Shown: piece after piece, positions 15,832-42,137 of the stretch | Position numbering within the stretch: the first letter of the stretch is position 1 | Layout of the letters: every line of letters starts with the position of its first letter | Source: Candidatus Acididesulfobacter guangdongensis | Lineage (GTDB): Bacteria > SZUA-79 > Acidulodesulfobacterales > Acidulodesulfobacteraceae | Reading direction: 5' to 3' | Assembly (NCBI GenBank): GCA_004195045.1 | Contig: SGBC01000001.1 | Span: forward strand, 372,001 to 436,000 | DNA: 64,000 bases | Program-made: the position numbers and the translations under genes | The notes under the pieces: model-generated | What the model saw: the letters and a program-made list of their open reading frames with translations, nothing else | Database searches by the model: none | Told to the model about the DNA's origin: nothing

Positions 15832-15909
15832 TTTTATACCCCTCCTTAATTGTTTTATATGTATTATATTGTATATTCTATCTGAATTCTACAAAATTAT
15901 CATTATTAA

Positions 15910-16090
15910 CCTTAATCCTGCAATAGAAAATTATCTGCTCGGAAAAGGTGTCAGATTAATTTTTTTGCAAATATTTTCTTTGTTAATTGAACTACTCCAT
16001 ATGCAAAAAAATAAGATCCGACACCTTTTCCTTATATGTTGCTTAACCGAGCAAAGAAATGTATAAACATTTTCTATTGCAGAATTAGGG
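15910..16090. mobile_element. Family A inverted-repeat element (MITE-like), split by a second element
   Basis: The ends CCTTAATCCTGCAATAGAAA and TTTCTATTGCAGAATTAGGG are inverted repeats with two mismatches. Both flanks carry ATTAA (15905-15909 and 16091-16095), a 5-bp target duplication. Removing the 91-base inner insert and one copy of a degraded 10-base duplication (TTATCTGCTC before, TTATATGTTG after the insert) leaves an 80-base element collinear with the copy at 37453. It codes for nothing and presumably depended on a transposase encoded elsewhere. Confidence 0.8.
15941..16031. mobile_element. Family B palindromic element nested inside family A copy
   Basis: A 91-base non-coding element running from GGAAAAGGTGTCAGATTAAT to the near-inverted end GATCCGACACCTTTTCC. 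Its inner arms (T-run then GCA; TGC then A-run) prolong the hairpin, leaving a loop of about 35 bases. It matches, in reverse orientation, the element at 41991-42084 over its full length, with only run-length changes and a few substitutions. It resembles REP-type or MITE-type hairpins mobilised by Y1 transposases; that link is inference. Confidence 0.8.
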
Positions 16091-16104
16091 ATTAAATTAA
16101 AATT

Positions 16105-16170
16105 ATATACAATATTGTTTGTATATTGTTTTAATATATATACAATATTGTTTGTATATTGTTTTAATAT
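16105..16170. repeat. Perfect 33-bp tandem duplication
   Basis: Two identical abutting 33-base units (16105-16137 and 16138-16170), each containing the palindrome ACAATATTGT and a TATACAA...TTGTATA pair. It lies between the cation-efflux stop and the family A element. It could be a double operator or a slippage product; no gene start lies immediately downstream on either strand. Confidence 0.75.
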
Positions 16171-37452: not shown

Positions 37453-37532
37453 CCTTAATCCTTCAATAGAAAGTTATCTTTTGCTTAACCGAGCAAAGAA
37501 ATGCATAAATATTTTCTATTGCAGGATTAAGG
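37453..37532. mobile_element. Family A inverted-repeat element (MITE-like), intact copy inside the trp operon
   Basis: Exactly 80 bases, with ends CCTTAATCCTTCAATAGAAA and TTTCTATTGCAGGATTAAGG (19 of 20 pair). It is flanked by AAATA on both sides (37448-37452 and 37533-37537), a 5-bp target duplication. The interior has a smaller hairpin (TTTGCTTAACCGAGCAAA). It lies in the 149-base spacer between trpC and trpF, so the trp mRNA must contain it as a long hairpin. Confidence 0.82.
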
Positions 37533-41799: not shown

Positions 41800-42137
41800 A
41801 ATTAGGCAATTATATCACAATTTTATTAAATTAAACATAATTATATATTGTTTAATCTAATACACAATAAGTGCGTTATATTTAATATTTGACTATATAA
41901 AATATAATTATGGAGGCTGTGCCGCAGCAATAGATTTTGTAATTCTTAATGATTTTTTTACAAATCTTATTGTAAATTTAATAAAAAAAAGGAAAAGGTG
42001 TCAGATTTTATTTTTTTTGCATATAGAGTAGTTCAATTAACAAAGAAAATATTTGCAAAAAAAAATTAATCTGACACCTTTTCCAATAAGTGCGTCCATA
42101 AAATAAATCAGATGCTTTTTATGAAGACGCTTTCTAA
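41800..42137. other. Intergenic region between trpE and rplQ
   Basis: About 338 bases. It holds a family B palindrome next to rplQ, an imperfect hairpin (around 41928-41972, arms AATAGATTTTGTAA and TTACAAATCTTATT), and a 12-base direct repeat CAATAAGTGCGT at 41865 and 42084. No tryptophan attenuator (no paired Trp codons in a short frame) and no RNA gene was recognised. Confidence 0.65.
41991..42084 (-). terminator. Family B palindromic element, probable terminator of the ribosomal operon
   Basis: A 94-base near-palindrome, ends GGAAAAGGTGTCAGATT and AATCTGACACCTTTTCC perfect over 17 bases, extended by pairing T-run and A-run arms. It is the inverted twin of the element at 15941-16031. It starts 54 bases past the rplQ stop, and on the transcribed strand the hairpin is followed at once by eight T residues. 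That gives it the form of an intrinsic terminator. No clear target duplication is seen here. Confidence 0.7.

Follow-up and report, generated by a model that had tools for sequence, protein, structure and literature searches.

The closest described systems are small non-autonomous repeats of two kinds. Insertion sequences of the IS1380 family typically duplicate 4–5 bp of their target. REPINs (PMC3116915) are inverted doublets of REP sequences that are associated with REP-associated tyrosine transposases (RAYT, TnpA-REP); TnpA-REP cleaves at CT, and most RAYT-linked REPs carry a GTAG head (PMC8266576). REP dimers within palindromes are known as well, namely GTAG-15 in Anabaena variabilis and CGTC-1 in Halothiobacillus neapolitanus (PMC3733652). 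In the passages of PMC3733652 that describe these cases, the larger palindrome around the dimer is itself repeated and no transposon family is assigned to it, and for the CGTC-1 class no flanking transposase genes were found.

Here we analyse a nested pair of repeats in the acid-mine bacterium Candidatus Acididesulfobacter guangdongensis. The analysed stretch of DNA, which we call the window, is 64,000 nucleotides long, and one of the relatives used for comparison is Candidatus Acididesulfobacter diazotrophicus (order Acidulodesulfobacterales). We conclude, with a probability of roughly 85%, that the 181-bp unit at 15910–16090 of the window is a composite non-autonomous transposon, in which a REPIN-like hairpin, element B, was captured by an IS1380-type MITE, element A, and spread with it as a unit.

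Element A resembles IS1380 elements and their MITEs in its CC/GG-type ends, in inverted repeats that match those of IS1380 elements in relatives at 15–17 of 20 positions, in its 5-bp duplication and in coding for nothing. It differs in its length of 80–90 bp, in an internal part that was not recognised in the insertion sequences and in carrying REP hairpins; furthermore, our search of the A. guangdongensis genome found no IS1380 gene. Element B is similar to REPINs in that it consists of an inverted REP doublet with a spacer, is present in tens of copies, shares its core with REPs beside RAYT genes of relatives, shows no target duplication and has a C^T junction that corresponds to the CT cleavage of TnpA-REP (PMC8266576). 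In contrast to REPINs, it is mostly trapped in a MITE here and its transposase gene is truncated in A. guangdongensis. As a GTAG head was found neither in the ends of B nor in the repeats beside RAYT genes, we call B REPIN-like and do not file it under the GTAG REPs. The whole arrangement is like the Anabaena and Halothiobacillus cases in that a REP dimer lies in a larger, repeated palindrome (described in the respective passages of PMC3733652), whereas A is tied to IS1380, has target duplications and empty sites and also occurs free of REPs. REP dimers in palindromes are thus already described there; new are the identity of the outer palindrome, its spread as a unit and the finding that a single MITE scaffold houses two classes of REP.

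Results

Structure of the locus

The unit consists of the 91-bp palindrome B nested in the inverted-repeat element A (80 or 90 bp), and it is flanked on both sides by the 5-bp target duplication ATTAA (15905–15909 and 16091–16095, neither with a strand). The left arm of A (15910–15940, forward strand) carries the terminal repeat CCTTAATCCTGCAATAGAAA, which matches the ends of IS1380 elements in relatives, and is composed of 21 bases followed by the 10-mer TTATCTGCTC (15931–15940). Element B (15941–16031, forward strand), of which there are further copies in the genome, is an inverted pair of REP-like sequences, GGAAAAGGTGTCAGATT...GACACCTTTTCC. The right arm of A (16032–16090, forward strand) starts with a second 10-mer, TTATATGTTG (16032–16041), and its last 49 bases end in the inverted terminal repeat at 16090. 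Elsewhere in the window, an 80-bp A without B lies between AAATA duplications (37453–37532, forward strand), and a solo B is found at 41991–42084 on the reverse strand, where no target duplication is visible. A preliminary description of the locus had read the elements, the 10-mers, the lengths, the ATTAA flanks and the copy at 37453 in the same way, and we confirm this reading throughout. Adjoining the composite, about 31 bp are duplicated in tandem (TATATACAATATTGTTTGTATATTGTTTTAA, 16105–16170); in the alignment, this doubled form is absent from the sister genomes.

The unit arrived in one piece

At the orthologous site, four genomes of the same genus (G001, G003, G005 and G004) have an uninterrupted sequence with a single ATTAA; the neighbouring gene is 91–97% identical in these genomes. 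Since the empty sites contain only one ATTAA, the 181-bp unit was inserted in a single step, later than the divergence from the sisters. G001 also lacks the 80-bp A found at 37453 and has one AAGTA at this site compared to two AAATA in A. guangdongensis. The surroundings of the solo B at 41991 are different in the sisters as well, but the alignment gives no clean empty site. The comparison of filled and empty sites, which the preliminary description had proposed, hence yields empty sites for the composite and for the A copy at 37453.

Element A is a MITE of the IS1380 type

An exact 5-bp duplication flanks 25 of the 44 listed A copies, with or without B, compared to about 1.4 in shuffled pairings, and in composites the duplications sit outside, around the whole A[B]A. 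Together with the empty sites, this supports the 5-bp target duplication that had been suggested for A. Because A combines CC...GG ends with a 5-bp duplication, we searched for IS1380 transposases (DDE, PF13701) and found several in relatives. Two of these belong to full copies of the insertion sequence: L445 is 1616 bp long, has a TTTTA duplication and matches the ends of A at 15/20 and 17/20 positions, and L450 is 1566 bp long, has a GTTAA duplication and matches A at 17/20 positions at both ends, whereas sites with at least 17/20 matches occur by chance only 0.05 times per shuffled 64 kb. The L445 protein scores 203.5 bits against NF033539 (IS1380), above the cut-off of 180; the L450 protein, for which the start codon comes late in the reading frame, scores 161.7 bits and thus below this cut-off. 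Both proteins score above the cut-off of PF13701. From the shared ends, the duplications and the family assignment of L445 and L450 we conclude that A is an IS1380 MITE; we further infer that it is mobilised in trans by an IS1380 transposase. Pairs of far-apart A ends in 8-kb loci were also considered as autonomous elements and rejected, as they enclose ordinary genes.

The composite is itself a repeated unit

Whole-genome searches retrieved more than 80 matches to A, in a count that takes each arm by itself, as well as more than 40 copies of B; the near full-length copies of B number about 50. These and the following copy numbers refer to copies retrieved from search matches and are lower bounds. 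The end of B, GGAAAAGGTGTCAGATT, occurs 64+71 times in the genome with at most two mismatches, compared to 0 for the reversed pattern, and the end of A, TTAATCCTGCAATAGAAA, occurs 80+81 times with at most three mismatches, compared to 2+1 for the reversed control. Both ends far outnumber their controls, well beyond what chance would give. The other copies in the genome and its relatives that the preliminary description had asked to be searched for are therefore numerous.

At least 18 A[B]A composites were retrieved in the 2.2-Mb genome of A. guangdongensis, most of them with identical junctions, in addition to half copies, solo B and 80-bp A. Among the retrieved near full-length copies of B, 18 lie between both A arms, about 12 have the left arm only, about 12 the right arm only and about 10 neither; a few copies enter this tally two times, once for each strand on which they were read. 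In 11 of 12 aligned composites, ...CTC is joined to GGAAAAGG and CCTTTTCC to TTAT..., or close variants thereof. Without B, the composite measures 90 bp, compared to the 80 bp of A at 37453. The composite was found in a second genus too; plasmid and phage records gave no match, nor did an exact 38-mer of B in the genome contigs searched. Among the composites, the distances between A arms and between B elements are uncorrelated (Mantel r 0.002), with a star-like spread and little signal, and this result neither supports nor excludes a linkage of A and B.

Half composites, consisting of one A arm and B, recur in two genera, mostly without 5-bp duplications, which may reflect deletions or one-ended events (L037, L050–L052, L054, L059, L079, L099 and L148; L027, L036, L044 and L060; L338, L340, L350 and L360 in G023).

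Element B and its transposase

In the consensus, columns 32–60 pair with columns 93–123, so that the two inverted REPs and their spacer form a hairpin. The relatives that are rich in copies of B encode a RAYT-like Y1 protein. Its best match is NF047646 (REP-associated tyrosine transposase), with 72–75 bits, slightly short of the 80 that NCBIfam sets as cut-off, and it reaches 48 bits against Y1_Tnp (PF01797), above the cut-off of 23. REPs with the B core GGTGTCAGATT flank the RAYT genes of relatives, with outer bases that differ from those of B: the gene at L414 is accompanied by seven copies or close variants of AATAAAGGTGTCAGATTTATTTAT, four upstream and three downstream and inverted, and REPs with the same core also lie beside RAYT at L411, L413, L415 and L416. 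A. guangdongensis itself keeps only a C-terminal remnant of the gene (L127:1743–2084; 80% identity over 83 amino acids), which sits directly between the B-type ends GGAAAAGGTGTCTGACACCTTTTCC and AATCTGACACATTTTCT. A transposase gene bounded by the ends of the elements, as looked for in the preliminary description, thus exists in truncated form. Several degraded REP-like palindromes surround the truncated gene (L127:400–2400; G000:C1:210961–212961).

At the host side of the B junctions, C is found on the left in 13 of 23 cases and T on the right in 19 of 24 (p about 4e-7 and 3e-5), a bias that is expected from the cleavage of TnpA-REP at CT (PMC8266576). A RAYT-type Y1 transposase is therefore the likely mobiliser of B. 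The IS605-type tnpA of A. guangdongensis was rejected for this role because no B-type repeats lie beside it. An IS605-type tnpA/tnpB pair at L091:253–3112 follows two small genes that, by eye, resemble a VapBC-type toxin-antitoxin.

Alternatively, B could be passive cargo that no RAYT has ever mobilised in this lineage, with half and solo copies as deletion products of the composite. The truncation of the RAYT gene in A. guangdongensis would fit this explanation, as would our failure to find RAYT in G001 or G003 and the many half copies in which B is followed by TT or TTA as in the composite. However, G011 and G013 have intact RAYT genes, and for each of them more than 20 matches to B are listed but few ends of A; we therefore conclude that B has been mobile on its own in the family. 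A purely passive B is thus unlikely in our estimation.

Probable capture of B without a 10-bp duplication

The similarity of the two 10-mers and the exact agreement in length (21+10+91+10+49 in the composite compared to 21+10+49 at 37453) could suggest that A was resident at 15910 first and that B inserted into it at this very locus, with a 10-bp target duplication. Several observations speak against this history and make it highly improbable. The sisters lack both elements at a clean empty site, and the junction is identical in most of the 18 composites. The consensus 10-mers of the composites, TTATCTGCTC and TTATATTTTG, differ at 4/10 positions even though the composites otherwise resemble one another closely, and for 49 copies of B in relatives target duplications were not above chance. 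Lastly, the 10-mer of the 80-bp A at 37453, TTATCTTTTG, is an exact chimera, composed of TTATCT, the first six bases of one 10-mer, and TTTG, the last four of the other; this is the product expected of a 10-bp deletion between TTATCT and TTATAT.

Copies of A that lack the hairpin in G023, which belongs to another genus, also argue against the duplication. One of 90 bp has CTGCTC joined to AAATATTTTA and keeps both 10-mer flanks, and a second of 87 bp has CTACTC joined to CATATTTTCC; both may once have contained the hairpin and lost it precisely, instead of never having been filled. The simplest history is that B inserted at CTC^TTA without duplication and that the 80-bp A is a later deletion derivative which itself multiplied. 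Hence the duplication of about 10 bp that was previously attributed to B is not upheld. The proposed order, A first and B later inside it, holds insofar as A predates the capture of B, whereas the empty sites and the recurrent junctions show that B did not insert at the window locus: the nested insertion is real but old, and the capture did not take place at this spot.

It is scarcely credible that the 181-bp unit is instead a single structured RNA or a regulatory element under functional conservation, with B as part of the fold: 11 aligned composites do fold as a long hairpin that contains further hairpins, but their covariation term is only -0.27, two-sided changes affect 2/54 pairs while most pairs are invariant or broken on one side, Rfam gives no match, and the copies lie at unrelated sites with 5-bp duplications, with A and B each also occurring alone.

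Discussion

For the composite transposon that we propose, the history may have been as follows. A RAYT-type Y1 transposase acting on single-stranded DNA would have placed B in an ancestral A, between the C and the T of CTC^TTA, without duplication, as suggested by the association of REPs with RAYT genes, the junctions and the lack of duplications at other B copies. This capture probably happened once, before or across the separation of the two genera, and A[B]A would then have spread as a unit, with an IS1380 (DDE) transposase acting in trans to cut at the CC...GG ends and insert the whole unit with a 5-bp duplication. From some copies, B, an arm or 10 bp may later have been removed through deletions between short repeats. 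The earlier suggestion of two distinct mobilisation systems is in line with these assignments, IS1380 for A and REP-RAYT for B. It had also been suggested that the transposases of the non-coding elements are elsewhere or lost; we find IS1380 genes only in relatives and a RAYT remnant at home, and both systems look orphaned in A. guangdongensis.

With its duplications and empty sites, the arrangement of a REP within a palindrome is now assigned to a known family of transposons. Thus, a non-autonomous element can take up a hairpin that belongs to an unrelated mobilisation system and amplify it.

Element A also carries REPs of another class. In relatives, among others G002, G006, G016, G021, G022 and G023, A contains a dimer or partial dimer of TGTCATTCCCGCGAAAGCGGGAATCCAG at nearly the same place as B, at loci that were chosen by their A ends, and dimers of the form TGTCATTCCCGC GAAA GCGGGAATCCA occupy this region of A. 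The sequence TGTCATTCCCGCGAAAGCGGGAATCCAG matches the CGTC-1 class (dRS3-like) as characterised in the relevant passages of PMC3733652; it is unrelated to B and absent from the copy in the window. Such dimers, together with the known REP dimers in palindromes, make A plausible as a carrier of REPs. We tentatively suggest that the IS1380-type MITEs of the order carry, depending on the genome, either a GGTGTC-type REPIN or a CGTC-1 dimer in the same region, and that these REPs might ride on a DDE MITE instead of using a transposase of their own. If this were the case, it would provide a route of spread for the CGTC REPs, the class without an associated transposase gene in those passages of PMC3733652, and the spread of REP classes without a transposase becomes testable.

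Further variants of A were observed. In one copy (L125:499–730; G000:C1:187667–187898), a third palindromic element is present (AACCCAACTTCACC...GGTGAAGTTGGGTT), and its end is also found in L092 near 2980 and to the right of A in L041. In L022, L023, L025, L103, L113, L114, L140 and L146, the REP within A is cut to one short hairpin, which is followed by a variable number of repeats of the TTTTTACTT type, as might result from slippage or template switching at the base of the hairpin.
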